NCBI GenBank assembly: GCA_030272155.1
Contig: CP126201.1
Location: 930,001 to 994,000, forward strand
Direction: 5' to 3'
DNA from: Tetradesmus obliquus
Lineage: Eukaryota > Chlorophyta > Chlorophyceae > Sphaeropleales > Scenedesmaceae
Length of the DNA: 64,000 nt
Of this stretch, positions 617 to 59,899 are shown one piece after another. Each line of letters opens with the position of its first letter. The first letter of the stretch is position 1. Position numbers and translations under genes: made by a program. The notes below the pieces were generated by a model. It was not told the DNA's origin, did not search any database, and worked only from the letters and a program-made list of their open reading frames with translations.

Positions 617-3600
617 ATGGGACGCCGCTCACGTCCAAGGTGGGCGGTGCTACTGCTGCTTGCAGCAGCTGCTGCTGTGACAGCCCAGGGCGCTAGTTAC
701 CCGCCGTTGGATGGCACCAGCAACAACAAAGCCAACCCAACATGGGGGTGAGTTCATTCGGCTTTCAGCATGCGCAGTAGGACAACCACAGCCAGAACTA
801 GCTGCCCTAGCTGTTACTTGGTGCTTTGCTGCAGCAGTGCTGGCCTTGCCAAACACCAGCTGTCTGCATACGCACACACTACACAGCATCAGGACATTGC
901 TAACAGCTCATCAAAAGATCTCAACATTTGGACACTGCACAGCAGCAAGGTCCTGCCCATCTCTGTGCTCTGCAGCCAACCCAGCCACGCCTGTCCATGC
1001 ATGACCAGCTGCAGATCCACACCTCCCACTGCCATTGTCTGCAGCATGGTCCATGAACACCCAATCAGATATGACTCACGTAACATGTTATTTGTGTTAT
1101 TTTGTCCTGCAGGGCTGCACGCACGCCGTACCTCAGGCAGCAGGTTCCGCAGGAGGCTTTCGGCCCCACAGGCAGCGCCATGGCGGTGAGTGGGCATGAA
1201 TAGTTCTTAAGGTTCATTGGTTTTATACGATCCAGAAGCTATTATGCTGTGGGCTGCCCCACAGGCAGCGCCATGGCGGTGAGTGGGCTGCACAACCTGT
1301 GAACTATCTTGAAAGAAATATATCACATGATTAGAGGGATTCAAAAGTTTCATAAGATCCCTAAGCTGTCATGCTGTGCGCTGCCCCACAGGCAGTGCCA
1401 TGGCGGTGAGTAGCATGTATGAATCATCACACATGATTCAAAAGTGATAGCCACAAAGTGTGCTGGAGATGCCTGCAGCTGCCGGCATACAGCCTTGCAG
1501 GCACTGCTGCAGCTGTCGCCAGCGCTGCAGCAGCTATTGCAGCAACTACTGCAGCCAGCGCTGCAGCAGCTGTCGGCAGCTCTGCAGCAGCAGCTGCAGC
1601 CAGCGCTGCGCCATGCACAGCAGAGCGGCAAGAGAGCGGCTGTCCTGCATGCTGTGCGCTGCACACTGTTTGCATGCCGTGCCCCAGCACTTGTCACATG
1701 CTGCACCTTGCACAGCCTGCCTTGCGATTTGCACCTGATCTATGCGACTCAAGAGGCTTCACTGAGGTTGCATGTGTATATTTGGGACGTTTTCTCTCCT
1801 TGCAGAATGCCAACCGCCCCTCTACGCGGGCAGTGAGCCTGGCACTGACCAACAGTCCTTACTTCAAGGCGGCAAGCAGCACACACCCAAACCTGACACT
1901 GCACCTGCTGTGCATGCTTTGTTTGTGTGCGTCAGGCGCCCACCGGCCGTCTGCGCGGGCAGTGAGCCTAGCGCTCACCAACAGTCCTTACTTCAAGGCG
2001 GCAAGCAGCACACACCCAAACCTGACACTGCACTTGCTGTGCATGCTTTGTTTGTGTGCGTCAGGCGCCCACCGGCCGTCTGCGCGGGCAGTGAGCCTAG
2101 CGCTCACCAACAGCCCTAGCTGTGACTCACACCTCACGCAGCCTGTTGTGCGTGTGCACTTGTCCTTGCTTGCTGCAGGGTGCCAACCGCCCCTCTGCGC
2201 GGGCAGTGAGCCTGGCGCTGACCAACAGCCCTTACTTCAAGGCAGCCAGCAGATACAACACCAGCTACCTGCTGTCAGCCCTGGGCCAGCTCATCTGTGA
2301 GTGACATTGCAGCCCTACCTGTGACCGCTAGTGCATTGTGGCAGTTGAGTCAAAGGGAAACATGCTGCTTCTTGGCTTAAAAGAGCCTTGTGGCAAGCAT
2401 AACACTGTTGCTGTTCCTGCTACCAGCAGATACAACACCAGCTACCTGCTGTCGGCCCTGGGCCAGCTCATCTGTAAGCATTGAGTATTGACTGTTGCAA
2501 ATGCTATCCGCCTTTAGATAAACTGTCTTTGTGTTGCGGCGCATGGCAGCGATGCCATACACTAGTAACAAATCAGAGAGAGGCATGCTGCAGTATTATG
2601 TGATGTGCATGCAGCACCTGTGGTGTTGGTGCTGTTTGGCTGGCTGCTGCCTTTGCCATGCCATTATACCAGCTACCTGCTCATGGCACTGGGCCAGCTC
2701 GTATGTGAATGACACAAGTTCATATGGCGTGCACTGCATGGCAGTGATGCCACATATCAGTGATGAACCAGAGAAGCATGCTGCTTCTGGAAGCTTGTGT
2801 GCTGTGCAGCCGTGATAACCAACCGCCTCACTTCATATCCAGCTTGGCATCACAGCCTGCTGCGTGCATGCCCCTGCTGACACACCTCCTGCCTGCCTGC
2901 TTGCTGCTGTTTACTCCGTTTTGCTGTGCAGCAATTGACGTCACCCGCATCAACGCACAGGCCACCTCGAATGGTGGCGCTGCCCCCATCCCCGTCCCCC
3001 CTGGTGACTCATCCCCTGCTCACATGCCTGAGTGCCTGCCTGCTTGCTGCTGTTTACACTTCTTTGCTGTGCAGCAATTGACGTGACCTGCATCAACGCA
3101 CAGGCAAGCTCCAATGGTGGTGATGCCCCCGTCCCTTATCCCCCCTGGTGACTCATCCCCTGCTCACATGCCTGACTGCCTGCCTGCTTGCTGCTGTTTA
3201 CACATTTTGCTGTGCAGCAATTGACGTCACCCGCATCAACGCCCAGGCCACCAGCAATGGTGGTGCTGCCCCCATCCCCATTCCCCCTGGAGACCCGCTC
3301 TTTGCAGCTTTCACAAACGGCATGCCGCAGGGCGGCCGGGCCGCGCTCAACTTCACACGCAGCGAATACGTCATGTGAGTGTTATCATCAGGTGTTTTGT
3401 GTGTTAGTCGGTGTGACCTTCTGATTGCAGCTTTCAAAGATGGCCAGCCGCAAGGCGGCTGCGCTGCACTCAACTTCACACGCAGCGAATACGTATTGTG
3501 AGTGGTATGATGGGGGACGCTTTTGGTGTTGTTTGGTGTGCCTTCTTTTTGCGGCCTTTAAGGATGGCAAGTTGCAGGGCCGCGCATAACTGCACCCGCA

Positions 3601-6245
3601 GCGCACACGTCATGTGCATGTTATTTCGGGTGTTTTTGGGTTCTGAATCAGTGTGGCCGCTTTTTGCGGCAATCAAACACGGCGAGCCGCAGGACGATAG
3701 TAACGCGCACCATCTCACCCGCAATGCATACGTCATGTGAGCGTTGGGTTTTACTTTACTTTGGTTGTTAGTTGGTAAGACCCGCTGCTGGAGGCCTCAG
3801 TCAGCGCAGCCCAGCTGTCATGTCACTTTGTCATTATCTGATAACAAAGTCAGCGCAGCCCAGCTGTCCTGTTACTTTGCCATTATCATATGATGACAAA
3901 GTCACAGGACAGCTGGGCTGCGCTCACCTTTCACACGCAGCGCATACGGCATGGGAGTGTTATTTTTGCATGTCTCGGGGCCATCCACCATCAAGCCAGC
4001 CATTCATGGTGTCATTTGGGGCTGTTCACCACTCACTACGCGACGCTGAAACTGCATTACAATCGTCACTGTTGCAGTGGCTGGGGGTCGAATGCCAGCA
4101 GGCAGGCCGTTCATGGCTGAGCACTCATTGTGCGCGCCGCTGACACCGCATCGCAACCACTGTTACAGAGGGCCTGGCCCGAATGCCAGCAGGCAGGCTA
4201 TCAACAAAGCACTCCCACATCTGGTACTGCGCTGCTGTATCAGCTGTTCACTGTGCTGCTGTGCTGCTGGTGGCTGCAGGGGCCCCGGTCCTAATGCAAG
4301 CAGGCAGGCCATGAATGTTGCCATCTGAAACTGCTGACACTGCATTACATTGCCACTGCTGCAGGGGTGCTGGTCCCAACGCAAGCAGGCAGGCCATCAA
4401 CCAGACCACCTGACACTGCTGACACTGCATTAGATTGGTCACTGCTGCAGGGGCCCTGGGCCAAATGCCAGCAGACACGCCATATATGAGGCCACCTGAC
4501 ACTGCTGACTCCGACTTACACTGGTCACTGCTGCATGGTCACTGCTGCAGGGCCCGGGGCCCAACGCAAGCAGGCAGGCCATCAACGAAGCCATGTTCAC
4601 ACCAGATACTGCGCTGCAGTAAAACTTCAACTGTTTCTATATATATCTGTTCACTGTGCTGCTGTGCTGCAGGGGCCCTGGCCCAAATGCCAGCAGGCAG
4701 GCCATCAAGGAAGCCACCTGGCATTGCTGACACCGCTGACACTGCATCACAATCGTCACTGCTGCAGGGGCGCTGGTCCCAACGCAAGCAGGCAGGCCAT
4801 CAACGACGCCACCTCATTCCTGGATGCATCCTGCCTGTACGGCGAAGACGAAAACGTGACTCAGGCCATCCGCGCAGGTATGCAGCGGCGTTTTTGCCCG
4901 GGCATTGCCCTGCTGATAATCAACCTCTGTATGGGCAGCTGTAAAGTACTGTATAACAGCTGCATGCATGCCTGCTGCAGCTGTTGAGCTGCACCTGCAT
5001 TTCAACTAACTGTTGTGCTGGGCATAGCTGCATCTTTTGCCCTGCCTGTTGCCCAGCATGCCTCAAACTCCATGCAAGCTGCACTGCACGTGTTACATAT
5101 GTAATGTAACACAAATAACATGTTACATCGTTGCAGGCACGGCTGGGCTGCTGCTGGATGATGGCCAGCGTCTGCTGCCCTTTAACAGAGAGAAAGCCAC
5201 GGGTGCACCAATCCTGCGGCTGAAAAACTTGGCGGGGCGGGTGCCAGACACACAGCTCAGGTGGGTGCGGCTCTGCACAGCAGCACAGCAGCACAGCAGC
5301 ACAGCAGCACAGCGGCACAGCACCAACCCCGCAGCACGTGCGATGCGATAGAGTGTTTGCCAGTGCAGCTCAGTTGGTGGCAGTCCTGCATGCACCTGAT
5401 TGCATAGGATCTGTGATTGGCAGCTGCAACCTGTTATGTTCTAATGTGTGTGAAAATGTAGCCCAACATGATGATGACACTGTTTGCATGTGTTTGAAAT
5501 GGCGGACAGCCGCTTGTCAATACATTACAACTGTCGCTCGCGCTCACCACGCTGCTGCTGCCGCTGCATGTCTTACCCTACAGGCTGTCTGGCAACGAGA
5601 ACGTCAACCAGAACCCTTTCCCGCTCACAATGACCACGCTGCTGCTGCGTGAGCACAACCGGCGCGCGCTGGCGCTGGCACAAGAAAACTCTACTTTGGG
5701 AGATGAGGAAATCTTCCAGGCGGCACGCAAGTGAGTATAAACTGGCAGCCTGTCAAGTCGGACTTGATGTAAATGCGTTAGCATATGATGTTGGAGAACT
5801 GGCACAAGAAAACTCTACCTTGGGAGATGAGGAAATCTTCCAGGCCGCGCGCAAGTGAGTATAAACTGGCAGCCTGTCAAACAGACTTGTTGCAACTGCG
5901 TTAGCATATAATGTTGGAGAACTGGCACGGGAAACCCTGCCGTGGATGATGAAGAAATCTTCCAGGCGGCCCGCAAGTGAGCGCGGCGCAGCATTGCCGT
6001 TTTGCGTATGTCGTGCAATCCGACTGCCACTGGCATGAATATTACAATTGCTGAATTGGCACAGGAGCACCCTGCGTGGGGACCCACATGCAGCGCATTG
6101 TACTTATGAAGTAGCTTGCTGCGTCTGTCGGCCAGGTGGGTAATGCCACACACACGCAGCGCAGTGCAATGGAGTACTTCACAGGCCTGTGCTCTGTGGT
6201 CTTCTGCACGATGCCCATGACAATATTAATGCGTGCAACCAAACT

Positions 6246-6280: not shown

Positions 6281-7989
6281 CAGGTGTGTGGTTGCCCACC
6301 TGCAGCGCATCGCCCTGGTGGACTACCTCACTGGGCTGGGCCTTGTTATATTGCAACTAGTGATTAAACGCCAACTGCATGCACCAACCTTCCCCTGCTG
6401 CTGCTGCCGCCGCCTTTGCTGCTGCTGATGTTGCTGCTGTTGCGCCTGCTGCTGCTTCCCAGGTGGGTGGTTGCCCACCTGCAGCGCATTGCCCTGGTGG
6501 ACTACCTCACTGGGCTGGGCATCCCCCTAGAGCCCTACCCAGGGTACAACGCCTCCCTAAACCCCGCCACAGACACCTTTTTCGCCACGGTGGCCTACAG
6601 ATACGGTGCGTGATGACATGTTGGGATTCTGTGTTTTGGTTTAGCCCTACTCAGGGTACAACGCCTCACTAAACCCCGCTACAGACACCTTCTTTGCTAC
6701 AGTGGCCGACAGATACGGTGCATGATCGGCGTTTACGGGTTTGGGGTTTGCTTTTTTCTGGTGCAGCCCTACCCAGGGCACAGCGCATCCCCGAGTCCCG
6801 CCATTGACATTTTTTTTTGCCGCGGTGGCCTACAGATATGGTGCGTGATCGGCATTCGAGGGTTTGAGGGGTCGGTGTATGGGTGCTTGTTGGTGCAGCC
6901 CTATCCAGGGTACAACGCCTCACCAAACCTCGCCATCGACACCTTTTTTGCCACGGTGGCCTCCAGGCACGGTGCGTGATCAGGGGTTTAGTTGTGGTTT
7001 TACAGTACTATCCTACCCAGGGTACAACTCCTCGCTAAACCCCGCCACAGACACCTTCTTCGCCACAGTGGCCTACAGATACGGTGCGTGATGAAAGGTT
7101 TGAATTTGTGTTATGGTGCAGCCCTACCCAGGGTATAACGCCTCGCTGAACCCCGCCACCGACTTCATTTCGCCTTGGTGGCCTACAAATATGGTGCGTG
7201 ATATGGCAGACACAGAAGATCATGCACGTTCATTGGGACACATGTATAATCAGACTGGCAAGAGCACGCAGGTGCATTTCACTTGCTGATCTGCTGCTGC
7301 CGCTGCTGCCACTGCTGCTGCTGCTGCAGGCCACTCCACCATCGCTGACGTCATCCCAAGGCTTGGCCCAGACTGGCGTGAGCACCCCAAGGGCCACCTG
7401 GCAAAGACTGACACAGTGCTGCTGCTGCTGCTGCTGCTGGTGCTGCTGCAGGTCACTCAACAAGTGCTGACGTCACCCCAAGGCTTGGCCCAGACTGGCG
7501 CGAGCACCCCAAGGGTCACCTGGCAAAGACTGACACAGTGCTGCTGCTGCTGCTGGTGCTGCTGCAGGTCATTCAACAAGTGCTGACGTCATCCCAAGGC
7601 TTGCCCAGACTGGCGCGAGCACCCCAAGGGTCACCTGGCAAAGACTGACACAGTGCTGCTTCTGCTGCTGCTGGTGCTGCCACAGGTCACTCCACAATTG
7701 CTGACGTCATCTTGCGCCTAGGTGCAGACTGGCGTGAACACCCCAAAGGCCACCTGGCCATGGCAGCTGGCTACTACAACCCCAATGTGGTGCTGGCTGC
7801 TGGTCTGGAGCCACTGCTGAGAGGCCTTATGGCAATGCCTCAAGGCGAGATCGAGTCACGGTGAGTGCTGCTGCTGCTGCTGCTGCCGCTGGCTACTACA
7901 ACCCTAATGTGGTGCTCGCGGCTGGGCTGGACCCACTGCTGAGAGGGCTGATGGCCATGCCTCAAGGGGAGATCGAGTCACGGTGAGTG

Positions 7990-8021
<32 letters not shown>

Positions 8022-8491
8022 TATTACAACCCCGATGTGGTGCTGGCAGCTGGGCTGGAGCCACTGCTGTGCGGCTTGATGGCGATGCCTCAAGGAGGGA
8101 TCGAGTCACGGTGAGTGCTGCTGCTGGTGGTGGTGGTAGTGGCTACTACAGTTGTATTGTAGTGCTGGCAGCTGGGCTGGAGGCGCTGCTGAGAGGGCTT
8201 ATGGCCATGCCTCAAGGGGAGATCGAGTCACGGTGAGTGCTGCTGCTGCTGCTGCTGCTGGCTACTACAACCCCAATGTAATGCTGGCTTCTGGGTATGG
8301 AGCCGCAGCTGCGGGGGCTGATGGCCATGTGTTTGCTTGTCTGTTTGCAGGTGGGCTGCCTCTGTTGCTGGCAACCTGTTTGGGTCCAGCACCATCAACG
8401 GCACCGACCTGGCTGCAATCAACATCCAGCGCGGAAGGGACCACGGCATACCAGACTACAACACCTGCAGGTGGGTTGTATGATGGTAGCA

Positions 8492-8528
<37 letters not shown>

Positions 8529-8692
8529 TCAGCATCCAGCGAGGCAGGGACCACGGCATTCCTGACTACAACACCTGCAGGTGAGACACCTGCAACTTGT
8601 TGCCTAGAGTGCATGACTTGAAGACGCTGTTGCTGCAACCGCAAAAGGCAGATTCAGCTGTCAACCCTGGGTTGCGGCAGGTGAGTGCGGGT

Positions 8693-8739: not shown

Positions 8740-11632
8740 GGCTCCGACCTGGCGGCATTCGGAGAATCAGAGGACAATGGCATCCCTGACTAGCATACCC
8801 ACTGGTGAGCACCTCAAACATCTTGCTCGCTACCAGGTGCATTGCACTTCAGTTTGCTGCACTACACTGCATGTAAGCGCACTGCTATTTGCTTCACTTC
8901 ATTGCGCAGCATTGTCACTGCTCTGCACTTTGATGCTGCGCTGCGCTGCCTGCAGGCGTCTAATGGGCCTGTCGCCAGCCAAAACATTCACCGACATCAC
9001 GCCAGACCCTGATCTGGCAGCCACACTGCAGCAGCTCCACACTTTGCTGAATCCCTATTTCACTAGCAGCAAACACGAACTGAAGTTTGCATCACTGTAC
9101 TGGCACTGCGACTGCCTGCAGGCGTCTGATGGTCTTGCCACTTGCCAAAACCTTTCCTGACATCACGCCAGACCCCAATCTGGCAGCCACGCTGCAGCAG
9201 TTTACCTCAAAGCTGAACTAGTACACAATCTGTAGTCACTAGCAGCACACACCACTGAAGTGTCCGTCACTGCGCTGACTGGGCATGCATGCAGGCGTCT
9301 AATGGGCCTGTCGCCAGCCAAAACTTTCACACACATCACGCCAGACCCTGATCTGGCAGCGACGCTGCAGCAGCTCTACACTTTTGCTGAACCCTTATTC
9401 ACTAGCAGCAAACACGAACTGAAGTGTGCATCACTGCACTTGCACTGCAACTGCCTGCAGGCGACTCATGGGGCTGCCGCCCGCAAAGACTTTTTCTGAC
9501 ATCACGCCCGACCCTGATCTGGCAGCCACGCTGCAGCAGCTCTACAAAAGTGTTAACAATGTGGATGCTTACGTGGGGGGCCTGGCAGAGCCGCACTACC
9601 AGCAGGCACACGTGGGGCAGCTGTTTTACCTGAGCATCAAAGACCAGTTTATGCGGCTGCGGGATGGGGACTTCTGGCATTACGAAAATGCGGCGGCCAA
9701 TGGGCTGTTCAGTGCGGCTGAGGTGGACGAGATCCGTCGCACAAGTGAGTACATTCATGCTTGGGGTTATGTTGTTTGTTGACTGAGCTGGGGTTTTGCA
9801 CGTGCTGGGTTGCTGGATTATGATTGGTGTCTGGCTTGCTAGGGTGTTGCCTGGGCAGCTGTTCTACCTGAGCATCAAGGATCAAGGACCAGTTCATGCG
9901 GCTGAGGGACGGGGATTGCTGGCACTACGAGAACGGGGCGGCCAATGGGCTGTTCACTGCGGCAGAGGTGGACGAGATACGGCGCACAAGAGAGTCAAAG
10001 TTTCCTTGCGCTTCTGATGATGTTTGTGCTGGGTTGCTGGCATCACTTGGTGGCTGGTTTGTTAGGGCTTTGGCTGGGCAGCTGTTTTACCTGAGCATCA
10101 AGGACCAGTTCGTGCGGCTGAGGGATGGGGACTATTGGCTCTATGAGAACGCGGCTGCTAATGTGCTGTTCACTGCGGCAGAGGTGGACGAGATCCGGCG
10201 CACAAGTGGGTCAAATTGACTTTTTTGAGAGGTTTTGATTCTTGAGATGTACTATGTTTTTTGTGTGGGGATGCTTATGTGGGGGGCCTGGCAGAGCCAC
10301 ACTACCAGCAGGCGCATGTGGGGCAGCTGTTCTACCTGAGCATCAAGGATCAGTTCATGCGGCTGAGGGATGGTGATTTCTGGCACTACGAGAACGCGGC
10401 GGCGAATGGGCTGTTCACTGCGGCAGAGGTGGACGAGATACGGCGCACAAGTGAGTGTTATTATATTGTGGCTGAGCTGGGGTCTTGTGCGTGCTGACAG
10501 GCCTTGTCACCCTGAGGGTGGTATCATGTTATGGTTGGCTTGCTAGGGTTTTGCCTGGGCAGCTCTTCTACCTGAGCATCAAGGATCAAGGATGACTTCA
10601 TGCGGCTGAGGGATGGTGATTTCTGGCACTACGAGAACGCGGCGGCCAATGGGCTGTTCAGTGCGGCTGAGGTGGACGAGATCCGGCGCACAAGTAAGTC
10701 ACGCCTTTGGCTTTGTGGGTTGATGGAGCTTGGGAAAATTGTGTGTGCTAATTTGCTGGAATTTGTGGTGACTGGCGTTTTAGGGTTCCACGTAGGGTGG
10801 TGTGCCGAGGTTATGCGTGCGGCTGGGGGATACGGAAATCTGGCACTATCAGAACGCGGCGGCCAATGGGCTTTTCAGTGCGGCAGAGGTGGACGAGATC
10901 CGCAGGACAAGTGCGTTGAGTTCTAATAGTGGTGCCTTTGGCTTGCTATGGTTGATCAAGCTGTGTGTTGTGCGGCTGAGAGATCGCAACTTTTCAGGCT
11001 TGCTGGCCATGCCAGCTGTTGAGTATGGATAACACTACTGGCAGCAATTAGTGGCGGTTGCATGTGCTGACACTGCAACATCGCCTGCACTACCCTGCAG
11101 GCCTGCGGGACCTCATCCTGCGTAACACAAACATAACAAATGACGAGCTGCCGCAAGACATCTGGACGGCTGTGGGGGCAGGCGGGGCCTGCGCCAACCC
11201 TGCTGGCAGCAGTAGTGGTGGGGCAGGCTCGCAGCAGCGGCTGGCGACAGCAGTGCTCAATGGGCAGGGCAACTTGGAGGTGAGCTTGGTGTTGTCTGCG
11301 GCAGCGATTCTGCTGTTTGCTGTTTTTCACAATCACCTGGTGAGCACTGTACAACTGAGCAACTAGGGTTGCAGCAGAATGCTGTGGTCTGAAGGACAGC
11401 CTGGATGCTTGACAACCGCTACACTACTGCTGCTGCCGCTGCTGCTGCTGCTGCTGCTGCTGCCAACAATGTTATGCGGGTTACTCTGCAGGCTTTGAGG
11501 GTGGTTGTCACGGCTGTGATGCGTGAGCTGCTGCTCTTGCTGCTGCACAGTGCTGCACTGTGCTGCATTGCGATGCAGGTGTCACGCAGCTTTGAGGATG
11601 GCTGGGTGGGAATGAACCTGATGCATGTCCTG

Positions 11633-11675: not shown

Positions 11676-12807
11676 AATGTTTTCCCAACCCTTTTGTGCA
11701 GGTCACGCCTGGTTCTGAAGATGGCTGGGTGAAGGTGAAGCTGATGCATGTCCTGCTGCTGCTGCTGCTGCAATGTTCTCCAACCCTTATTTGCAGGTGA
11801 CACCTGGCTCTGAAGATGGCTGGGTGAAGGTGAAGCTGACAGCTGCTGGCACTGGGTGGCTGGGCTTTGGCGTGGCACAGCAAGGTGAGTGCGTGCAGGC
11901 ATTGTCTTCGCATCAATTGCCTTTGCAGCAGGTCTCGGTGCATGATGTGTCTTGGGTGTGTGCCTGTGTCTGCGCGTGTGTCTTTGGGGGCTGCACACGC
12001 AGGCACGTGATCATGCAGATGCTGCCAAGAACAGATCAGCCTGTTGTTTGGCAAGCTCTGTCATTCACGAGTGCAGCTGCTCCCAGTGCAGCGAAACTTG
12101 ACATGCTTTAACCCAATCATTGCTGCATGCAGGCACTGAGACCCCGATGATTGGGGCTGACATGGTGGTGGGCCGGGTGGCCAATGGCGTCCCACAGGTG
12201 CGGCAGCGCACAGCACCAGCCTGCATCTGCATATTTGAATGACATTTGAATTGGTTTGGTTGGTTAAGCATCAATTGTCTGTGTGCAGGTCTTCTGCTCA
12301 TCTCATGAATCCTCTTTATGCTGCACAGCGCCTGACATGCTGCTGACAGTGCACGCTTGGTAGCGCTCGGCGCAACATTGCATGAGGTTTAATGGATAAA
12401 CTATGTTTCTGGTTGCGTTAATGCAGGTGAAGCGCTACCATGCTGTTGACCACATCCCTCCCAAGGAAGCGAGCGACGCCTCCACCAGCGAACGCATCCG
12501 CGGCGCCAGGTGAGGACACAAATGTGCAGCAGCCACTGCAGCAGCTGGGCGGCATGTCATGCTTAGAGTGGCACTGCTGCTTGTCGCCCTGACAGTCAGG
12601 TGCCACGCAAACCTGGTGCTTGTTGCTGGCCTGATCAATGCTTCATTGACGATGCTGCTGTCGCTGCCGCTGTGGCTGCTTCAAACATACACCCTTTCAC
12701 ACTTCCCTCAACACCAAGCAGTCTGGTGGCACATCTATCTGGTATCATAGCGGTTGCTTGCTGCATCGCCACTGCTGTCGCTGCTGCTGCTGCTGCTGCT
12801 ACTGCTG

Positions 12808-12998: not shown

Positions 12999-13121
12999 CC
13001 TTGTCCACATTTGTTCTGCAGCTTCACCCAGTCTGGTGGCACAGTTACCTTGGAATTTGAACGGCCAATGGACGCCTGCGGTGACGCTGCACTGTCATCT
13101 GGATCGGTGCTTCACTGACAC

Positions 13122-13185
<64 letters not shown>

Positions 13186-13328: not shown

Positions 13329-13361
<33 letters not shown>

Positions 13362-15650: not shown

Positions 15651-15695
<45 letters not shown>

Positions 15696-47770: not shown

Positions 47771-48267
47771 TGCTTTGCATGTGCACAGCACGTGCGTGGA
47801 ATCTGGGCCGTGCAAGTGAGCTCTCAGGTCTTGCAACTTGCAAGCCTGCTTAAAGCAGGAGAACAGCCGCTTTTCTGAAGACCACACACATGTGGTCCTA
47901 CATGAGGACGCCGTGCATGTGACAGCATCACCCAGCATCATCAGATGCGCATGTCAGCCGTTGCAAGCATGAGTTGTGCCTTACACGCCGGGAACACAGC
48001 CCGTGTCTAGCCAATGACAGGCACATTACTTGTTATTTTTTGTTACCAAGGGGAGCGAAACCCTACTGGCTGGCCATACACAGCAATCAAGCGAACCTGA
48101 ATGCCGGAGGCCTACGGCACTGCCGTCACCAGCAAGACACGCAAACTTCCCTATACAGGAGGTGCCTAGCGCCCGGACCAAAAAATAAGCAGGGAGTTGA
48201 ACCCCCACACCCGCTTGGTGTGCTACAACTCAATCACATTACCTGTGACTTCTTCAAAACCCAACTC

Positions 48268-48880
48268 GAACAGCAGCGCGTGCGACAGCCGCACAAACGC
48301 AGCCAGCCCCACCACCACCGCCACCTCGGCTGAGCCCTCAACCCTAAACAGCAAGAGGCCGCATCCCGATTTGTTTGTTACACAACGGAAACACAGCCCA
48401 TTTCACTCAAAACAGCACCCATAAGTAATACGGCTATTCAAACAGCAGCGCGTGCGACAGCCGCACAAACGCAGCCAGCCCCACCACCACCGCCACCTCG
48501 GCAGAACCCTCAACCCTGAACAGCCAGGCCAGGCCCACAGGGGGCCAGGCAGTGGGATCGTAGCCGGAGGGGCCCCAGGGGTTGCAGCGCAGCAGCCGCC
48601 ACGCCGTCAGCACTGTGCCTTTCGCGACGCCATACGCCCTGCACACGCACGCGCACAAGCAGCAGCACAGGGCGGTCAAGATGTTTGTGGGAGGGACCAC
48701 AACAGCAGCAGTCAGCACTGCGCCTTTTCCAACGCCGTACGCCCTGTGCACACAAGCCGCAGCAAATGCAGCACAGAAGTAACGTCGAGAGGAAACAGCT
48801 GCAAGGGGACCCCAGGGTTGCAGCGCAGCAGCTGCCACGCCGTCAGAACTGTGCCTTTCGCGACTCCATAGGCCCTGCAC
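48268..48880 (-). repeat. Echoes of the last YidD-like exon
   Basis: On the minus strand, 5' echoes start near 48879 and 48752 (AYGV-KG-VLTA, the first also with LLRCNPG) before the intact exon at 48638. After the stop, 48350-48268 repeats the end of the exon ([18 protein letters not shown]). Confidence 0.85.
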
Positions 48881-50009
48881 ACACAACAGCATTGCTTGAG
48901 AGTGGGTAACAGCGCCGCTTAATCGTGGGTAGCTATGCATTGACTGTGTACATTTGTTCTCTTGTACCAGCCGCTGAAGCAGCAGATGCACGACAGGACG
49001 GCCGAGGCATTTGCTGGACGGAACGACAGCAGCGGAATAGCCTGAGGTGCTTCTGGTCCAACAGTGCATTGGATGTGAGGTGCACTGCTTGCACGCGCCT
49101 GCTTTTACTGTTGCTCGGAATGCATTGGAGCGCTTGCTGGCTCGAGTCACGGGGCGCAAGCACAGACTGAACCAACAATGCACGAGCTATTGACAGAGAG
49201 TTTGCATATAGCTTGTGAGCATGGAAGTAGCCTGAACACATTTGGTAAGCGGTGAGAGTCACCCACAGCATCTGCGCGTCAAACCAGGCTCTGCCAAATC
49301 CACTGCGGCTTTGCGACAACAGACAAGCTAAACACCACCCTTAACAACAAGGGCTGCAACGCATCTGTAGCTATCCATAATGAATTGGCTACAGGTTTGC
49401 AAGATTTGACAGCTGCTTGACACATGCAATACACCTGTAGCTATCCATGCAACACAACATTTCTGTCAAACATGCTGCAGCCCACCTGTAGCTATCCATG
49501 CTGTATTGGCTGCAGGTTGGCAGGAAGCGGCAGGTGGAAGCCATCATGGGGCTCAGTGCACTCTTGTACCAGCGCAGCATGGCCAGAGCAGCAGCAACAC
49601 CAGGGCTCTCCTGGCCTGTGTGATCCTGCTGCTGCTGCTGCTGCTGCTGCTGACTGTCGTTGTTTTCTAGAATGCTGCTGCTGCTGCTGGGGGCAGTGGA
49701 TGGGTCGACCTCTGTTGCGGCCCCCAGTAAGCTGGCTAGTGGCGGCATGTCGGGTATGGCTGGCATGCCTTCTGAAAAGCTGCCGGTGCTGCTGCTGCTG
49801 CTGCTGCTGCTGCCTGTTGACACAGGGGACTGGCCATCAAGCTGAATACTGAACATGCTACCAGGTTGTATACTGCTTGTTGCCTGCCTGCTGCTGCTGC
49901 TGCTTGCTACTGCCCATGCTGGCTGCCATAGGTTGGCCGCTGCTGCAGGTTGCTGCTGCTGCTGCAACGCTGCCAGTGCTTCAACTGAGCACTGTTGTTG
50001 CAGCTGCTG
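48434..50009 (-). CDS. YidD-family (DUF37) protein, 5' end unresolved
   Basis: Two minus-strand exons join in phase: 50009-49486 and 48638-48434, giving the last 242 aa. The family core is unmistakable: [34 protein letters not shown], then across the intron [18 protein letters not shown] and [10 protein letters not shown]. Bacterial YidD is a ~80-aa factor that helps YidC insert membrane proteins; plant and algal members are taken to be plastid proteins. Here the core is preceded by ~150 aa rich in Gln and Ser and followed by a hydrophobic C-terminus. The first coding exon is not identified: the exon at 50009 follows an acceptor-like TTGCAG and no upstream ATG in frame is convincing (the first internal Met is at 49859). 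Introns and flank hold echoes of both exons. Confidence 0.82.
49363..49510 (-). repeat. 3' echoes of the YidD-like exon carrying [11 protein letters not shown]
   Basis: Downstream of the real donor at 49486/49485 on the minus strand, ATGGATAGCTACAG recurs at about 49451-49433 and 49378-49363. Confidence 0.8.
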
Positions 50010-51085: not shown

Positions 51086-54000
51086 ATGAGGCTGGTCAGT
51101 CCAGCTGGGCGATCTGCTCGCCCTAGCCTCAGCACTGCAATAACGCTTCCCAACTCTGCCAGGAGACGCGTCAGGACTCGGCTATCGCATTACAGTGCCT
51201 TTTACTACGATGTACAACAGCTTGACTTCCGCAGCACGCCTCTCACGCCTGCAGAGGCCACGCAACACCTGGACCACCTCGTGCGAGGTGAGCAAGGCAC
51301 CTGGGGTCCTGGCAGCAGTTGGCATGCCCGCACTCCACGTGTGGGGCGTCTATAACATAAGTCTCATCGTGGTGTGTGCGTGCAGGAGCTACTGGTGCCT
51401 TTGGCCCTCTGTATTTTGCCACATTCTGTGCACTGTCTGTGACGCTTGGCGCCCTGCTGTACAACCTGACTGGAGTGCTCAATGAATACTTTGAGATTCA
51501 GCAGCGCCTCACCAACAAGCCAGAGGTATGTGCTTTATTGTTTCAGGGAGCAGCGCCGTATGTCTAGCTCCCATTGCAGCAGCATTGGCTTGCAACTGCA
51601 GCAGCCTGCGCAGCAGTGGTTGCAGGAGAGCGCCCTGCCCTGCTGCAGCAGCTGTGCCAGCCCTCATTATGCAGAGCACGCCAAGCACACTGGCTGTGGT
51701 CTGCACGGCATTCTCCATAGATTTTCATGCACGTTGTGGCATGTGCACGGCAACATGTTACGTCAGAAAGCTTGCTGTTGCTGGTATACTTGCAGGAGTA
51801 CTTGCCACTGCTGTTTACTCTGTCAGCGTCAACCGCAGCTTGATGTGCATGCATGCTGCTTCATTTTTTTTCCATCTTTCATCCTTTTCATCCTTTTTTG
51901 CTTGCAGGAGCGGGCGCTGCTATATGGCGTGGATGTCAGCCGCAGCAGCATGTTCAAGCAGCCCCGCGTGCGTGCAGCAGTGGAGTTTGCAGCAGCAGCA
52001 CACGCGGGACAGACGCGCAAGACAGGAGAGCCCTACGTCAGCCACTGCATAGAGACAGCGCTGATTGTGGAGGCCAACCTGCCACACTGGCGGCATGACA
52101 GCAGGTGCTTGCAGGAAGCTTGCACAAAGTGGAGCAGCGGTTTTGTGGCGGTTTTGTGTGATTTTGCAGTTGCGTCGGGTGATGCCCATAGAAGTTTTGC
52201 ATTGAGCCGTCGCTCTTTTTTGCAACATCACCCAGCAGCATTTCCCAGCAACAACGGAACAGGCACATGCCCAAGAACAGGCGGTCCGATGTGCTAGAAC
52301 AGGAGCCACAACACGCCTTGCTGGTTGACAATCGCTGGCGCCACGTCTGCATTTTGCTGCAGGCATGAGACTGCAGTCATCGCAGCGCTGCTGCATGACG
52401 TGCTTGATGACACAGCCACCACGCCAGAGCAGATCACGGGGGCCTTTGGCCCCGCTGTGTCAGCCATGGTGGTGAAGATCTCCAAGCTGTCACAGGTCAA
52501 CCAGATGCTGCGGCGAGACAAGCGCAAGGTAAGCTACAGCTGCTTGAATGCTGGGGCTGCAAGCGCCTGTCAGCGCAGCACCGGTGTGATGTAGCCAGTT
52601 CATCTGCTTGGGTTTCTGTTGCGGTGTGTGCGTGTTCTGTGGCTCAGCGGCAGCGGTGGCCGTGATGGTCAAAATCTGCCAGCTGTCGCAGGTCAACCAG
52701 ATGCCGCGCAGAGACAAGCGCAAGGTTAGCACTGTGTTGTGGTCGCGTCTGACACCCTGATCTACTACTAGTAAACCAATAGCCATGAAGCAAGCAAGCA
52801 GCACCTATGTGTGAACACTAGTGTACAGATGGATCCGCACCATCAGGGCTCTACTTGCATTGAGCACATGCCACTTCCTGCTATGTCCTGCACTGCCGCA
52901 GGGCGTGGTCAGCGGCGATGCCAGCTACTGGCAGTTGCAGTGGCAGCTCTCACTCTGTTTGCACTGCTGCCTGCCATGTTCTGCACTGTCACAGGGCGTG
53001 ATCAGTGGTGATGCCAGCCACTGGCAATTGCAGTGGCAGCGGCTCACCTCAGCTTGTGCTGCGCTGCTCACTGCACCCCGCCTGTTGTGACTGCCTGCCG
53101 TTCTGTTCAGGGCGTGGTCAGTGGCGATGCCAGCTACTGGCAGTCGCAGTGGCAGCGGCTGAAGCGCATAATGTTTGAGGCGGTTGTGGAGGAGCCACTC
53201 GTCATCCTGGTCAAAGTAGTCTTGTACAGCTGCTCACTCTGTTTGTGCTGCTTCACTGCCTGCGCTCTCGCACACCTCTGCTACCCCCCGATTTGCCGCA
53301 GGGCGTGGTCAGTGGCGATGCCAGCTACTGGCAGTCGCAGTGGCAGCGGCTGAGCGCATGATGTTTGAGGCGGTCGTGGAGGAGCCTCTCGTCATCCTGG
53401 TCAAAGTAGTCTTGTAGAGTTGCTCACTCTGTTCCGTGCTGCTTCACTGCCTGCGCTGTCGCACACCTGTGCTACTCCTTAATTTGCCGCAGGGCGTGGT
53501 CAGTGGCGATGCCAGCTACTGGCAGTCGCAGTGGCAGCGGCTGAAGCGCATGATGTTTGAGGCGGTTGTGGAAGAGCCACTTGTCATCCTGGTGAAGCTG
53601 GCAGATCGGCTGCACAACATGCGCACCGTGTACGCGCTGGCGCCGGCAAAGCAGCAAGCGGTGGCAGAGGAGACGCTGGCGGTGTGGTGCAGCATGGCTG
53701 GCTCACTGGGCTGGCACGGCCTCAAGGTAAACAGGCCGCACCTATGCTTGCTTGTGTCCTTCGTTGACACAAATGTGTGTAGTTGGTGGCAGCAGCTGCT
53801 AGCAGCTGTGTATCCGGTTGAATGCAGCAGTGTAGATCGTGTTGTTTGCGCTCTCTTGTCAGCAGCGCTTTTGACGTAGTAGTGGTGGCTGAGGAGACGC
53901 TGGCGGTGTGGTGCAGCATGGCGGGGTCCCTGGGCTGGCACGGCCTCAAGGTGTGAGTGCGGGAATGACTTTGTTTTTACATATATGGGTATCTGCGTGT

Positions 54001-57000
54001 GTTTGTGAGGCAGTAGCGGTGGCTGAGGAGGCGCTGGCAGCATTGTGGTGCAGCATGGCTGGCTCGCTGGGCTGGCGCAGCCTCAAGGTGGGCTATTGGC
54101 ATGTATTCAATGCATAAGAGTTTGGCGCCACTTTCTGGCTGTTCCAAAGCTGCCTCTCGGGCACACACATGTAACCACTGTATTCCTGCGCTGCAGGCAG
54201 CCGCAACCTGCAACCCGTACTGCGGCTTGTGCATTCCAAGCACGTGCGACTGTAGCGGCAGTAGTCTCGACACTTCCATTTTCAATGTGTTTTTTGTGTG
54301 CCGCAGAGTGAGATGGAGGACCTGTGCTTCGCAGTCACAGACACCGCCACCTTCTGCTCTCTGCGGCAGCAGCTGGACAAGCTAAGTAATGCATGTCACT
54401 GCCATGTGTGTCTGCTTCCTCTGCAGAGTGAGATGGAGGACCTGTGCTTTGCTGTCACAGACACCGCCACCTTCTGCTCTCTGCGGCAGCAGTTGGACAA
54501 GCTGTGGAGCAGCCCGCCGCCGCCACGCAGCCGCCGCAGGGTGCGCAGCAGCCCGCGGCAGCAGCAGCTGCGCGCGCTTGCGCAGCAGCAGCAGGAGCTG
54601 GCCGCAGCACGTGCTTGGGCGTGGGAGGAGAACGTTGGCCAGGGCCTAAGGGATCTGCGGAGCTTGCTGGGTTTTGTGCGGCTGCCGATGCGGCTGCTGA
54701 AAGGGATGAGGCAGCCGGTGCCTGCTGCTGCTGCTGCTGCTGAGGATAGTGAGCAGCAGCAGCAGAGTGATGTGTCGGCCAATGCACAACCCAACAGCAG
54801 CAGCAGCAGCAGCAGCAGCAACTTGCATGCTGCCGCGCTGCAGCAGCAGCAGCAGCAGCGCAATGCAGGCCTTGACCTGCTGTCGCGTGTGTGGCAGCAG
54901 AGCGATGCCGCTGCTGCCACGCCGCTGCTGCCTGCGCCGCCTGAGGGTGATTCTGAGGAGCCCCAGAGAGCTTCAGGGGGTGACTGGGGTGTCACTGATG
55001 CAGCATTGAGCTTGAGGACACTGCTTGGCAGCAGCAGGTGGGCAGCAGGCCTGCAGCCGGCCCCACCACAGCAGCAGCAGCAGCCGAAGCAGCGGGCGCC
55101 GCAGCCGCTCACCGCGCAGCAGCAGCAGCTGCTGAGTGTGCTGTCGACGGTGGTGGCGTTTGATGCTGTGAGCTTGAAGGGCAACCGGGGTTTAACCTGG
55201 TCTGCGCAGCAGGGCCTAAGGGTTCTGGAGGAGGCAGCAAGCAGGCTGTATATGGAGCTTGCTGTGGGCAGCTTCAGCTGCGGCCTGCAGGTGAGATGCC
55301 GTGTGGTTATAGGGAGTGAGCAAGCAGTGGCAGCTAGTGTGGTCTGCTTTGCTGCTGCACTGCATGGCTGTACATGGAGCTAGCTGTGGGCAGCTTCAGC
55401 TGCAGGTGAGATGAGGTGTGGTGTGGTTACAGGGGCTGAGCGAGCGTGCTCTGCATCGCTGCTGCACTGCAATGCTGTATATGAAGCTGCCTGTGGGCAG
55501 GCTTCAGCGGCGGCCTGCAGGTGAATGGATGCCTGTGATGCAGAGGCAGCGAGCATGCACTGCATGAGTGGTGTTCAAACAGAGCGCTGTGGACTGGCTA
55601 TGCATTGTTAGTGCACTGCACCGATGTTGCGCTGCCAGGCATCGTAATGCTGACTCGCGTTCCCTGCTAAGGAGCGCTGAACGGTGCACGATGGCGCACA
55701 AATAAAACTCTCTGCTCTTGTCTGACCATATTGCTGCAGAAGTGTGACTGGGGTTTGAGCAAGGCCTCACTGCTTCATGTGTGTGTGTTCCAACTGCAGG
55801 TGGAGGTGCAGGGCCGCTTGAAGAGCCTGCGCAGCGTGCACAGCAAGATGCAGCGCAAGGCCTGCAGCGTGGAGGTGGGTGCCTGCTGACTGTTTCTTTG
55901 CGTTGCAAGAGGCGCATCCGGTTTTGCCGGGTGGCCGTGATGCTGTGCCTGAGTCTGCAGATGCCTTTTTCAATGTCGCGTTGTTGCTGTGGCCTTCGTC
56001 TCTGCATCCACCCGAGCAGACAGGACCCCACTGCTGCTGCCTGTCGTGTGAGTAATCGACCTACTGTAAGAGGTGTACGATATGTGTGCATCTGTGGGCT
56101 TATGCTTGCTTGTGTGGTGTTGGCTGTGGGAAACCCGCCGCTTTGGCCAGAGCAGATAACAATCAGCTGTTGATATGCGTCACTGCGCCGCCAGGAGGTA
56201 TATGACGCGTGTGCGCTGCGTGTGGTGGTCGACGACGGCATTCAATCCACTAATAAAAGGTTTATGTGCTGCTGCTGCTGTGCTGCACACTGCAGGAGGT
56301 GTATGATGCGCGTGCGCTGCGCGGGGTGGTGGATGATGGCGGCGGCAGCCGCCTCGCACACAAAACATTCTCGTTGCCGCTGCCTTTGGCTGAAACAAAG
56401 CTTACGAAGCACGTGCACCCTGCTGCTGCTGTTGTGCTGCACAATGCAGGGTGTATGACGCGCTTGCTCTGCGCGTGGTGTCACTCCACGCTGCTCATTG
56501 CTTACTTCCCCCGCGCGTGCTGTGACAACACCTGTCTGCAGGAGGTGTATGACGCGCGTGCGCTGCGCGTGGTGGTCGATGACGGCGGCGGCAGCCGCCT
56601 GGCCGACGCCGTGCAGTGCTGCTACCGGCTCATCTCCGCTGTGCACAAGCTGTGGCACCCGATCCACGGCGAGTTTGACGATTACATCGCAAACCCTAAA
56701 CCCAGCGGCTACCAAGCCCTGCACACCGCGGTTTGGGGCCCGGGCGGCGCCGCGCTCGAGGTTCAGATCAAAACCTCGGGCATGCACGAGCATGCAGAGT
56801 ATGGTGGGGCAGCACACTGGGCGTATAAGGAGGTGCTGTGGGGGTCAGCTCCTGCTGCTGCTGCAGCTGTGAATGCGCTGGATACTGCAGCTGGTACTAC
56901 TGCAGTGGATGCGCCTGCGTCTGTGGCAGCAGCGGCAGCAGCAGCAGCGCGGCAGAGCGTGGTGCAGGCGCTGCCGCCGGTGATGTTCACATTTGATGAG

Positions 57001-57416
57001 GACGGTCAGCTGCTGAGCAGCAGCGAGTTTGCAGGATCGGCAGCAGCAAGCAGCGGCAGCAGCAGCAGCGTGGTGCCGTTTGGGCGCGAGCTTGTGTCAG
57101 CTGCAGCAGCACGCGGCAGCAGCAGCAGCAGTAGGGAGCTTGCACGCAGTCTTGCAGCAGCTACGGTAGCAACTGCTGAAGTTAGCAGTACCGCCAGCAG
57201 GGCAGCTGCTGCAGTAGCAACAGCAGCAGGGTCGGCTGTGCAAACAGCAGTGCCAGCAGGGCAGCAGCGCGAGGCTGCTGCTATGCCGCTGCTGGCCAGG
57301 ATTGCGGCGCTGAGCAAGCAGCAGCAGGCACAGGCACCGCTGAAGGCTGCTGCAGCATCAGCACTGCAAACATTAGAGCCTTCTCGCCAGGCCCGCAGCA
57401 GCACCAGCAGTTATGT

Positions 57417-57460
<44 letters not shown>

Positions 57461-59899
57461 TGAAGCCGGCGCCTGAGGTGTATGTGGGCCAGCCTGTACT
57501 CCGTGTGTCTGACCGCCTGCGCTATGGCGCTGTCCTTGCAGTCTTCAATGGCAGCAGCAGCAGCAGCAGCAGCGCATCATTGCTGCCAGTGGCAGGCTTC
57601 GGAGACCTTGTCAGCCCTGCAGCACTAGCAGCAGCTGCGGCACGTGCTGCAGCAGCATCAGCAGGCCCTGCTGCCGACCCCAGCAGCAGCAGCAGCAGCA
57701 GCAGCAGTGCGTGGTCTAATGCTGCTGCCAGCCCCAGGGCAGGCGGCCGGTTGAGCTTGCTGTGTGTTATAATGAGTGGCGGCACAAACCCTGACCACCC
57801 CTGGCGCATGCCTGACTATGCGTTTTACCAGGAGCTGCTGCAGTATGCTGAGTCAGCAGGCTGGGAGCGTCCTGGGCAGGGCGACTGGCACGCGCGGCTG
57901 GAGGAGTTTGAGTGGTGCAGGGACGGCAGGTGGGTGCGGTTCACAGTAAGTAGCTATTGGTCAAACTTTGGTCAAACTTTGGTCAAAGGCTAGTCAAGGT
58001 CTGCTGAGTCAGCAGGCTGGGAGCGTCCTGGGCAGGTCGACTGGCACGCGCGGCTGGAGGAGTTTGAGTGGTGCAGGGACGGCAGGTGGGTGCGGTTTAC
58101 AGTAAGTAGCTATTGCTCAAACTTTGGTCAAACTTTGGTCAAACTTTGGTCAAAGGCTAGTCAAGGTCTGCTGAGTCAGCAGGCTGGGAGCGTCCTGGGC
58201 AGGGTGACTGGCACGCGCAGCTGGAGGAGTTGAGTGGTGCAGGGACGGCAGGTGGGTGCGGTCTAGTATGGGTATTCTTGGTCAAACATTGGTCAAAGGC
58301 TTGTCAAGGTGTGTTGACTCAGCGGCATGCTGGCTGCGGTATGGCGGCAAAGGTTACCTGCAGGGCTGGCTGGACAATGAGGCTGCTGCTGCTGCATTCT
58401 GATGCATGTAACTGCAATGTGTAACAGTGCTGCTGTCTGCCACACTTTGTCATCCTGCCTGCCTACGCCGTAAGTCATCATGCTGGTGCGTTCTCACTGC
58501 TGCTGCTGCTGCTGCAGGTGGCACAGGCGGGACCACATGGGTTACCTGCACCCCCACACCACACTCACGCTGCTGGAAGGCTACGAGCGCGACGCAGCTG
58601 AGGCAGCAGCAGCAGAAGCAGCTTGCACGGCAGCAGTGGCGGCGGCAGCCGCTAAAACTGCTGCTGCAGTGACTGCTGGATCGCTCAGCTCTGTTGGTAT
58701 CAGCACCTCCAGCAGTGACGTCAACAGGGCTGGAACTGCTGACACTCTGGCAGCAGGCGCTGACAGCACCAGCAGCAGCAGCAACAGCGCTGTGTGCCAG
58801 GTCACTGGCTGGCCAACTGGCAGGCAGCGGGCGTCACCCGACCCCACTATGCTGCTGCACAGCTGGGCCACTGGCGGCAGCTGGCTGAAGAGCCAAGCTG
58901 CAGCAAGCAGCAGCAGCAGCAGTGCCAGCACGCAAGCTACCATCCAGCAGCAGCAGCAGCAGCAGGGTGAGGGCCTCATGCCCGCTGCAGAGGCAGCAGC
59001 AGCAGCAGTGGGTGCTGCAGCAGGTGGTGTGGCGGCAGCTGGGAGCGGCCCGGACTGGGCTGCCACTGCTGCAAAAGCTGCGCAGCTGCGCAGTGTGATT
59101 GAGTGGGGCGTGGAGGCGTATGGCGTTGAAGAGGGCAACGGCACTGGCGGTGGTGACGTGTCAGTTGTGATCTGGCCTGGTGAGTGCTGTGTTTTCACGT
59201 TTGAGGAGGCTTAGTTGTAAAGGATGAGGGCGCCATGGAGGCGTATGGTGTTTAGAAGAGCAGCGGCACAACTGTATGTGCGCTGAACTCTTTCGGCTTG
59301 TTTGTGTGCGCTGCAGTCGGAAATCAATGACATGCCTCGCGGCATGACTGCGGGCGAGATCCTGCCAGCTATCTCTCATCTTATGTATGTGTTTGTGTGA
59401 ACCCTCTGCTCGGCTTGTTTGCGTGCGCTGCAATTGACATTATTGAGGATGTGCCTCGCGGCACGACTGTGTGTGAGATCCTGCCAGCTACCGCTTACTG
59501 TATATTCGCTGAACTCTGCGCGGCTTGCGTGTGTGCGCTGCAGGTGGTGTGATTGAGGACGTGCCTCGCGGCACAACCGCCGGTGAGATCCTGCGAGAGA
59601 AAGGAGTGCTCGCAATCCTAGCAGATGACGAGGCATCTTCTTCATCCTCCTCAAGTGACAGTGATGCTGAGCCCGCTGACCTCGCCGCACGCAGCAGCAG
59701 CAGCAGGAAGCAGCAGCAGGCGCAACGCAGCAGCAGCGGCGTGGTGCAGCTGGCGCGGGCGGCTGCTGCAGAGCCGCCAGGCATGCAGCAGCAGCAGCAG
59801 GTGCGGCTGGTGAATGTGAACAACCGGCTGGTGTCCGAGGATACTGTGCTGAGCGATGGAGATCTTGTCATTTTGGCGCGGGAGCGCATCAAGATCTGA
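51086..59899 (+). CDS. RSH1: RelA/SpoT homologue, RSH1 type (plastid (p)ppGpp metabolism)
   Basis: Ten exons close in phase and give 1,427 aa: 51086-51287, 51386-51525, 51908-52104, 52363-52528, 53493-53726, 54427-55290, 55800-55874, 56542-57929, 58518-59179, 59544-59899. The Arg/Ser-rich N-terminus looks like a transit peptide, followed by one hydrophobic segment (about residues 72-92). The HD hydrolase domain keeps AHAGQTRKTGEPYVSHC, LLHDVLDDT (His191-Asp192) and KLADRLHNMRT. EMEDLCFAV is an RSH1 hallmark. The synthetase-like domain has EVYDARALRVVV, EFDDYIANPKPSGYQALHT, EVQIKTSGMHEHAEYGGAAHW. A C-terminal TGS domain (VIEDVPRGTTAGEIL ... NNRLVSEDTVLSDGD) ends the protein; no ACT domain follows. 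Long Gln/Ser/Ala-rich insertions separate the domains. Arabidopsis RSH1 is regarded as a hydrolase lacking synthetase activity; whether this one synthesises is not decided by what I can see. One donor (57929) has a close alternative at 57945. Confidence 0.92.
52634..52724 (+). repeat. 3' echo of RSH1 exon 4
   Basis: Repeats VKISKLSQVNQMLRRDKRK and the donor in altered form, ~200 bp after the real donor at 52528. Confidence 0.85.
52902..54087 (+). repeat. Echo array around RSH1 exon 5 (4 upstream, 2 downstream)
   Basis: 5' echoes start after acceptors at 52902, 52995, 53111 and 53302 and repeat GVVSGDASYWQSQWQ; the last two extend over 100 bases into the exon before diverging at GTCAAAGTAGTC. 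The intact exon is 53493-53726. 3' echoes ending at 53950 and 54087 repeat VAEETLAVWCSMAGSLGWHG and a donor. Confidence 0.9.
54307..55521 (+). repeat. Echoes around RSH1 exon 6
   Basis: A 5' echo at 54307-54383 nearly duplicates the first 77 bases of the exon (SEMEDLCFAV). The intact exon is 54427-55290. 3' echoes near 55372-55407 and 55474-55521 repeat the exon end (LAVGSFSCGLQ). Confidence 0.88.
56195..56600 (+). repeat. 5' echoes of RSH1 exon 8
   Basis: Copies starting after acceptors at 56195, 56296 and 56450 repeat EVYDARALRVVVDDG in varied states of decay. The intact exon starts at 56542. Confidence 0.9.
57415..57461 (+). repeat. In-frame CAG tract (poly-Gln) in RSH1
   Basis: About 14 CAG codons within exon 8 of RSH1, in the low-complexity linker after the synthetase-like domain. 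Confidence 0.9.
57959..58251 (+). repeat. 3' echoes of RSH1 exon 8 with TCAAACTTTGG units
   Basis: Two copies of the exon end (AESAGWERPGQ... DGR) end at donors near 58085 and 58251. Between them are short tandem TCAAACTTTGG repeats (57959-57990 and 58117-58155) made from the intron start. Confidence 0.9.
59317..59600 (+). repeat. 5' echoes of RSH1 exon 10
   Basis: Two decayed copies of the TGS start (I-DMPRGMTAGEIL and IEDVPRGT) begin near 59317 and 59431. The intact exon starts at 59544. Confidence 0.82.

Follow-up and report, generated by a model that had tools for sequence, protein, structure and literature searches.

In Tetradesmus obliquus, introns carry repeated, truncated copies of the edges of their own neighbouring exons. 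These copies, here called echoes, were analysed in a 64,000-nucleotide stretch of nuclear DNA (the window, C11:930001-994000); the whole genome has 17 contigs and 104.66 Mb. They most probably arose by serial short, local, direct duplications at exon-intron junctions, with the maintained exon as master and older copies lying farther out and decaying. As tabulated in PMC5966456, strain UTEX393 (108 Mb, 57% GC) has a mean intron length of 462 bp, the longest among the five algae in the table, the others having 230-302 bp.

Exon-edge copies in the genes of the window

The rigorous part of the analysis covers three genes with 35 intact exons: PRX, a heme peroxidase-DOMON-b561-like gene (19 exons), SAT, a serine acetyltransferase gene (7), and RSH1 (9). 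Exons were set by tblastn with relatives' and NCBI proteins, followed by a splice-site scan, and their order agrees at the protein level with the relatives' proteins. A gene finder is the sole basis for 2 of the 35 (PRX 12133-12197 and 12427-12509), and the set leaves out the last PRX exon or exons and genes without a fetched relative. This gene finder, self-trained and home-made, with masking and stronger penalties, was validated in the three genes alone; exons shorter than 30 bp were dropped, as were genes with fewer than 240 coding bases in family counts. Some of its predicted exons in the window are themselves echo copies.

Each intact exon, extended by 60 bp on either side, was searched for in its two adjoining introns at a score of 20 or more, with low-complexity sequence masked or skipped in this and the repeat searches. 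The search returned 101 exon-like matches, 82 of which hold a splice junction: 38 an acceptor only, 43 a donor only and 1 both. Upstream of exons lie the 38 acceptor-edge matches, the single acceptor-plus-donor match (at PRX exon 3, where two copies may be chained), 8 exonic and 4 purely intronic matches; downstream lie the 43 donor-edge matches and 7 exonic ones. Of 32 acceptors, 16 have acceptor-only echoes; of 32 donors, 18 have donor echoes. By gene, PRX accounts for 34 donor echoes, 24 acceptor echoes and the one with both, SAT for 4 of each single-edge type, and RSH1 for 5 donor and 10 acceptor echoes. Copies inside one array are not independent of each other.

Two controls place the echoes locally. 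Identical probes run against non-adjacent introns of the three genes gave 37 matches in 274,419 bp (6 acceptor, 5 donor), against 101 in the 45,974 bp of adjoining introns, 16-fold more per base. The window was also extended by 10 kb either way and these 84 kb were aligned to themselves, with microsatellites masked; this gave 221 direct and 3 inverted near pairs, and near direct repeats cover 28% of the sequence. The junction copies described in an earlier note on this DNA are thus real, and the array counts bear out its claim of repeated duplication across exon-intron borders; its figure of roughly 50 copies for the peroxidase gene may even be an underestimate.

The same note described a strict polarity, which the counts uphold: none of the 81 single-edge matches in the introns adjoining the 35 exons lies on the wrong side, donor-edge matches being absent upstream and acceptor-edge matches downstream. 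This is no evidence of a polar mechanism. When a segment over one junction is duplicated directly and the outer sites are still used, the truncated copy, by simple reasoning, automatically lies on the intron side. For a duplicate that spans an acceptor, the downstream copy alone is continuous with the exon, so the truncated one is left upstream; for a donor the case is reversed. The polarity therefore points to local direct duplication with continued use of the outer sites. It also speaks against dispersed or retro-copied insertions, since these would often land on the wrong side.

PRX occupies 617-18400 on the forward strand (tblastn with P0121, P0122, P0123, P0124 and P0126, plus the splice-site scan). 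Its intact exons 1-7 lie at 617-747, 1113-1185, 2179-2296, 3218-3374, 4768-4877, 5137-5260 and 5584-5730; exons 8-13 at 6463-6605, 7686-7860, 8351-8470, 9461-9744, 11101-11279 and 11797-11884; and exons 14-19 at 12133-12197, 12427-12509, 13375-13545, 14230-14467, 15799-15927 and 16704-16857. A further exon is predicted to start at about 18400. The predicted protein has a DOMON domain (Pfam PF03351). The region 617-19142 is apparently one gene, encoding a heme peroxidase, then a DOMON and then a b561-like region; a Scenedesmus protein (P0123) unites PF03098, PF03351 and PF03188.

All PRX arrays lie on the forward strand. Exon 2 has a donor-edge array at 1163-1420. Exon 3 has an acceptor-edge array of upstream copies and the intact exon start (1801-2252) and a donor-edge array (2246-2714), and the arrays of exon 4 (2871-3963) divide into an acceptor-edge part, 2871-3294, and a donor-edge part, 3295-3963. 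Within the latter, at 3799-3960, a direct repeat of ~49 bp adjoins what appears by eye to be an inverted copy. Seven matches form the acceptor-edge array of exon 5 (4039-4822), and exon 7 has a donor-edge array at 5675-5981. Both edges are again echoed at exon 8 (6281-7202; acceptor 6281-6520, donor 6531-7202), exon 9 (7332-8329; acceptor 7332-7758, donor 7768-8329), exon 11 (8937-10916; acceptor 8937-9546, donor 9560-10916), exon 16 (13010-13692; acceptor 13010-13443, donor 13490-13692) and exon 17 (13803-15383; acceptor 13803-14280, donor 14336-15383). Exon 10 has a donor-edge pair (8419-8583), exon 13 an acceptor-edge array (11677-11839) and exon 19 a donor-edge array (16763-17416). The families of exon 18 (15585-16590) comprise an exon-touching one on the acceptor side, 15585-15853, and a donor-edge one, 15855-16590. 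One further PRX family, at 17483-18217, was scored as intron-internal. By eye, the peptide GHLTTWGGLCAAALAAINLLQ encoded at 18171-18233 matches the predicted start of the next exon (~18400), so this family probably consists of upstream acceptor-edge copies.

The SAT exons span 25415-29418 on the forward strand (P0241 plus the splice-site scan). Echo arrays flank exon 3 (acceptor 26443-26622, donor 26674-26956) and exon 5 (acceptor 27665-27803, donor 27899-28138), and exon 4 has an acceptor array at 27152-27305. The RSH1 exons span 51386-59896, also forward (P0001/P0002 plus the splice-site scan). Donor arrays lie at 52463-52730 (exon 3), 55244-55565 (exon 5) and 57843-58323 (exon 7), and acceptor arrays at 52874-53596 (exon 4), 56192-56603 (exon 7) and 59271-59597 (exon 9); two families touch exons, at 53657-54090 (donor end of exon 4) and 54303-54503 (acceptor start of exon 5). 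At 59886-59947, a 17-bp tandem repeat of 3.6 copies, with the unit GCATCAAGATCTGACGA, holds the final RSH1 codons and the stop; it is a small echo of the coding end that reaches into the 3' untranslated side.

Beyond the three genes, gene-finder exons were used at an echo score of 22 or more. More arrays lie in the FAM32A-like, cysteine-rich and glycosyltransferase-like genes at 29927-42412 (forward strand) and, at 48266-48886, in a YidD-like gene on the reverse strand (48223-49580; PF01809). The Pfam match to PF08555 (FAM32A-like) is slightly above the cut-off and that to PF13692 (glycosyltransferase-like) below it, and the Pfam search matched no family to the cysteine-rich protein. Echoes occur at 4 of 14 predicted edges in the FAM32A-like gene (the 'lysine-rich' gene), 2 of 5 in the cysteine-rich gene, 4 of 4 in the YidD-like gene and 14 of 18 in the glycosyltransferase-like region, where there are two predicted genes. 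A U-box protein gene, absent from the earlier note's list, starts at 1-550 on the reverse strand and extends left beyond the window (Pfam and gene finder); 28 of its 56 predicted edges have echoes. Unlike the genes adjoining them, an RRM-like gene (44782-46700) and an LHC-like gene (62298-64772), both named by eye from the predicted proteins, are free of echoes at all 11 and all 8 predicted edges, respectively. We would expect these two genes to be highly expressed.

Age order and boundaries of the copies

Divergence tends to rise with distance from the exon. Apart from 1 tie, the copy lying farther out is also the more diverged one in 62 of 92 comparisons (nominal p = 0.001, the comparisons being non-independent), and the nearest copy is the one most similar to the exon in 21 of 29 families. 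Of 80 copies, 29 resemble another copy more than they do the exon; for the other 51 no copy is more similar than the exon. Such an age order would result if the working exon were copied again and again and older copies were pushed outward, and it accords with the outward growth from the junction that the earlier note had proposed. Introns with edge echoes have a median length of 697 bp (n = 23), against 308 bp for those without (n = 9; p = 3e-5), and echo matches make up 47% of the 18,597 bases in the 25 introns having any.

The description of the copies as tandem holds in part. Among 52 near pairs of at least 90% identity, 19 are separated by a spacer like one or both flanks, but only 4 are contiguous and 29 have a spacer unlike either flank, so plain tandem duplication is insufficient. 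Compared with the parent's, the intron flank is related in 47 of 75 testable copies, unrelated in 25 and intermediate in 3; flank divergence was taken from the alignable pairs, 33 of 146. Relatedness is independent of the identity of the exon part (7 of 13 copies at 95% or more have unrelated flanks), and there are thus seemingly two kinds of copy, with and without intron flank. Blocks of at least 92% identity reach a median of 5.5 bp into the intron in the window (n = 20) and 5 bp in other stretches of the genome (n = 10). They rest on the 182 of 422 block-edge rows with the expected direction and the exon partly in the block (240 other-direction or whole-exon rows were excluded), and pairs below 85% identity were dropped from the block lists. 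Block ends lie close to the splice site, as though it were respected during copying or in later upkeep. In the listed block ends, spacers and decay blur the breakpoints at which microhomology or a fill-in signature would show.

Such boundaries would be accounted for if the copies came from a diverged second haplotype, by template switching or unequal exchange between homologues alike in exons only; the same origin would explain the unrelated flanks and spacers, the third-position excess described below and the absence of recognisable intron-internal repeats. Two observations speak for such a source: 8 of the 47 N-terminal residues compared are different in the SAT protein of OEZ85, a second T. 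obliquus set, and the relative Scenedesmus sp. NREL 46B-D3 is, in the excerpt of PMC7955037, likely diploid with separated alleles. The top protein match of the RSH1 query is OEZ86_013411 of T. obliquus, and our guess is that OEZ85 and OEZ86 may be two haplotypes. Most testable flanks (47 of 75), however, are related to the parent's own intron, and arrays of 5-7 distinct copies would demand many exchanges. We regard a haplotype origin as unlikely, though it is compatible with serial duplication from a maintained exon, for which it would supply the source of the copies.

Preference for exon edges and spread beyond the window

The 36 repeat families of the three genes comprise 32 with an intact edge, 3 that touch an exon and the 1 scored intron-internal; random placement in the same gene structure would give 31% edge families among edge and intron-internal ones. 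For comparison, 250 kb from C1, C2 and C8, picked blind to content, were analysed with gene-finder exons. The 39 families found there divide into 30 edge, 1 exon-touching, 2 intron-internal and 6 intergenic. Edge families number 30 of 32 when set against intron-internal ones (p = 2e-7 against an expected 51%); counting intergenic families as well gives 30 of 38 (p = 8e-10 against an expected 30%). As 11 of the 30 hold both edge types, the 51% expectation counts multi-edge placements; single-edge families alone give 19 of 21 against an expected 0.39 (p = 2e-6). Unlike the polarity, this edge anchoring is not automatic.

The anchoring bears directly on a simpler account, in which tandem duplication strikes at random and purifying selection removes exon-internal and whole-exon events while edge-spanning and intron-internal ones survive. 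It would explain both the polarity and the complete lack of exon-internal families with no targeting at all, and small tandem duplications are, according to the excerpt of PMC8355091, the commonest short insertions in the human genome. But intron-internal families are too rare for it: 1 of 36 in the window genes, and in the 250 kb 2 against 30 edge families, where 49% intron-internal are expected (p = 2e-7). Exon sequence is conserved and hence easier to recognise, which favours edge families in the counts. The faster loss of recognisable sequence in introns surely contributes, yet flanks are still recognisable in 47 of 75 copies. Random duplication with selection is accordingly an improbable explanation.

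Echoes are found well outside the window. In the 250 kb, 48 of 624 predicted edges (7.7%) have an echo in the expected direction, against 0 of 2664 random targets at equal score. At least one echo occurs in 14 of 36 genes having six or more edges, and the spread among genes is 3.3 times binomial. Near repeats cover 28% in the window against 4.1, 2.1 and 6.8% in the three other stretches; with the echo-bearing edges found outside, this contrast marks the window as a hot stretch of a wider process. The 250 kb also hold 19 matches in the other direction beside the 48, which counts against serial duplication from a maintained edge; part of these perhaps stem from predicted exons that are echoes themselves. 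One comparison stretch, C8:2000001-2050000, stands out with 13 near inverted pairs, the counts in the remaining three being 3, 1 and 1.

Serial duplication from a maintained exon would proceed as follows. Short local direct duplications would recur at exon-intron junctions of T. obliquus genes, the copied piece running from the exon interior across the splice site, typically over tens to more than a hundred bp, and landing nearby inside the intron. Intron sequence would sometimes be co-copied; elsewhere an unrelated spacer would intervene. At the DNA level, the likely route would be break repair with fill-in or replication template switching. Copies that keep the outermost original sites in use would leave the protein unchanged and so survive, and this alone would fix the polarity. 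Selection would maintain the exon edge, so that the functional edge stays the master. New copies would arise beside it, with older ones farther out and decaying as dead DNA, and the intron would lengthen into a layered, decaying archive of past exon-edge sequences.

What causes the edge preference we infer rather than demonstrate directly. A process drawn specifically to junctions, through splicing, transcription, chromatin at exons or exon-limited recombination between diverged haplotypes, may copy the edges one by one into introns, leaving an ordered archive of past or allelic exon sequences as the introns grow outward from the splice sites; we regard this as a tentative possibility, with the odds somewhat against it.

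State of the copies and relation to known systems

The copies look dead, and judging from their sequence they would not be spliced into mRNA. A very unlikely alternative is that they are working alternative exons or exon halves, from tandem exon duplication and alternative splicing. Most splice dinucleotides are indeed present: 73 of the 79 mapped copies have a GT or AG no more than 2 bp out of register. Divergence would predict about 10 losses; of the 6 seen, one resembles a register slip (2 of 81 single-edge matches, with an unmappable junction, were left out). There are also only 3 stops in 2021 codons under a looser alignment, and differences between parent and copy are biased to third codon positions (130/112/442 at positions 1, 2 and 3). 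The truncation, however, is one-sided, and a second splice site is no more frequent where the copy breaks off than in the background (AG in 33 of 61, background 0.54; GT in 23 of 57, background 0.48). Complete mini-exons, as a description of the copies, find no support in this boundary test. Under strict alignment, 17 of 89 copies contain a frameshifting gap (19 frameshifting gaps against 2 in frame; 89 of the 96 acceptor, donor and exonic matches were kept, those with fewer than 20 aligned exon bases being dropped). In the annotated RSH1 protein P0001, each of five tested echo peptides is present once.

The codon-position bias also weakens when changes are assigned to lineages. Changes confined to the parent fall 4/5/39 on the three positions, a sign that the intact copy is the one in use; for shared or complex changes the split is 12/11/69. 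Part of the third-position bias thus reflects synonymous change in the working exon since the copying. At 307 nonsynonymous codon differences a relative could be aligned: only the exon matches a relative at 218 of them, only the copy at 24, both do at 22 and neither at 43. Differences between copies number 192/182/516 (looser alignment). Changes unique to younger copies are distributed 32/40/75; they comprise 81 nonsynonymous and 66 synonymous changes and no stop, against an expectation of 70, 27 and 3%, respectively (p = 3e-6). A neutral archive within a single lineage does not predict this remaining excess, which counts against serial duplication in its simplest form. We suspect copying from, or exchange with, diverged alleles. 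Mismatches cluster inside 6 of 55 copies at p < 0.05 (Stouffer p = 0.07), which neither favours nor disfavours gene conversion.

Two technical readings are weaker still. An assembly artefact from collapsed or interleaved haplotypes might be suggested by a likely diploid relative (excerpt of PMC7955037), but is highly improbable: the copies differ from one another, as the earlier note had observed, are tens to over a hundred bp long with codon and age structure, and occur in all four stretches on four contigs. Slippage or exchange at CTG/CAG microsatellites by the splice sites is hardly credible, in spite of CTG tracts in several arrays, as a tract lies within 120 bp on the intron side at 1 of 48 echo edges against 83 of 576 others (p = 0.013); in the three genes the figures are 5 of 33 echo and 6 of 31 other edges, and the echo search masks tracts, a possible bias.

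In rice, Vaughn and Bennetzen (2014) reportedly described 'partially tandem' duplications with a spacer, ascribed to break repair, and these spacer events resemble the T. obliquus pairs. Small tandem duplications from break repair with Pol alpha-primase fill-in (PMC8355091) are similarly short and direct; unlike for the echoes, no tie to exon-intron junctions is described in the excerpt. Introners and introner-like elements (PMC9860276) have rapid gain of intron sequence in common with the arrays, but echoes match their own neighbouring exon far above other introns, and a 1388-bp query matched other contigs, among the matches listed, only over short segments of 74-84% in its CAG-rich part, not as introner-like sharing across loci. 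Tandem exon duplication, as in the 90-bp LRR exon arrays of Tetrahymena (excerpt of PMC6564038), likewise repeats exon/intron units within a gene. It repeats whole exons, however, whereas T. obliquus echoes repeat one edge inside introns (a single edge in 81 of the 82 edge matches).

Among openly licensed PMC papers, no description of recurrent exon-edge copying was found, and a single potato case is the nearest precedent. In the RdRp gene described in the excerpt of PMC4974935, tandem duplication of an intron-exon structure produced a new intron. There, as here, a local duplication brings splice signals into new sequence; the potato event created an intron and altered exons, whereas in T. obliquus introns lengthen, exons are kept and edge events recur.

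The arrays are an annotation trap, the gene finder used here having called copies exons, and they provide a test case for how the spliceosome chooses the right site among nearby intact-looking ones. As intron sequence decays, the growth of introns is normally difficult to follow. In these T. obliquus genes the exon is a preserved reference against which single steps of growth can be counted and put in order within one genome; the record of intron growth is unusually legible.
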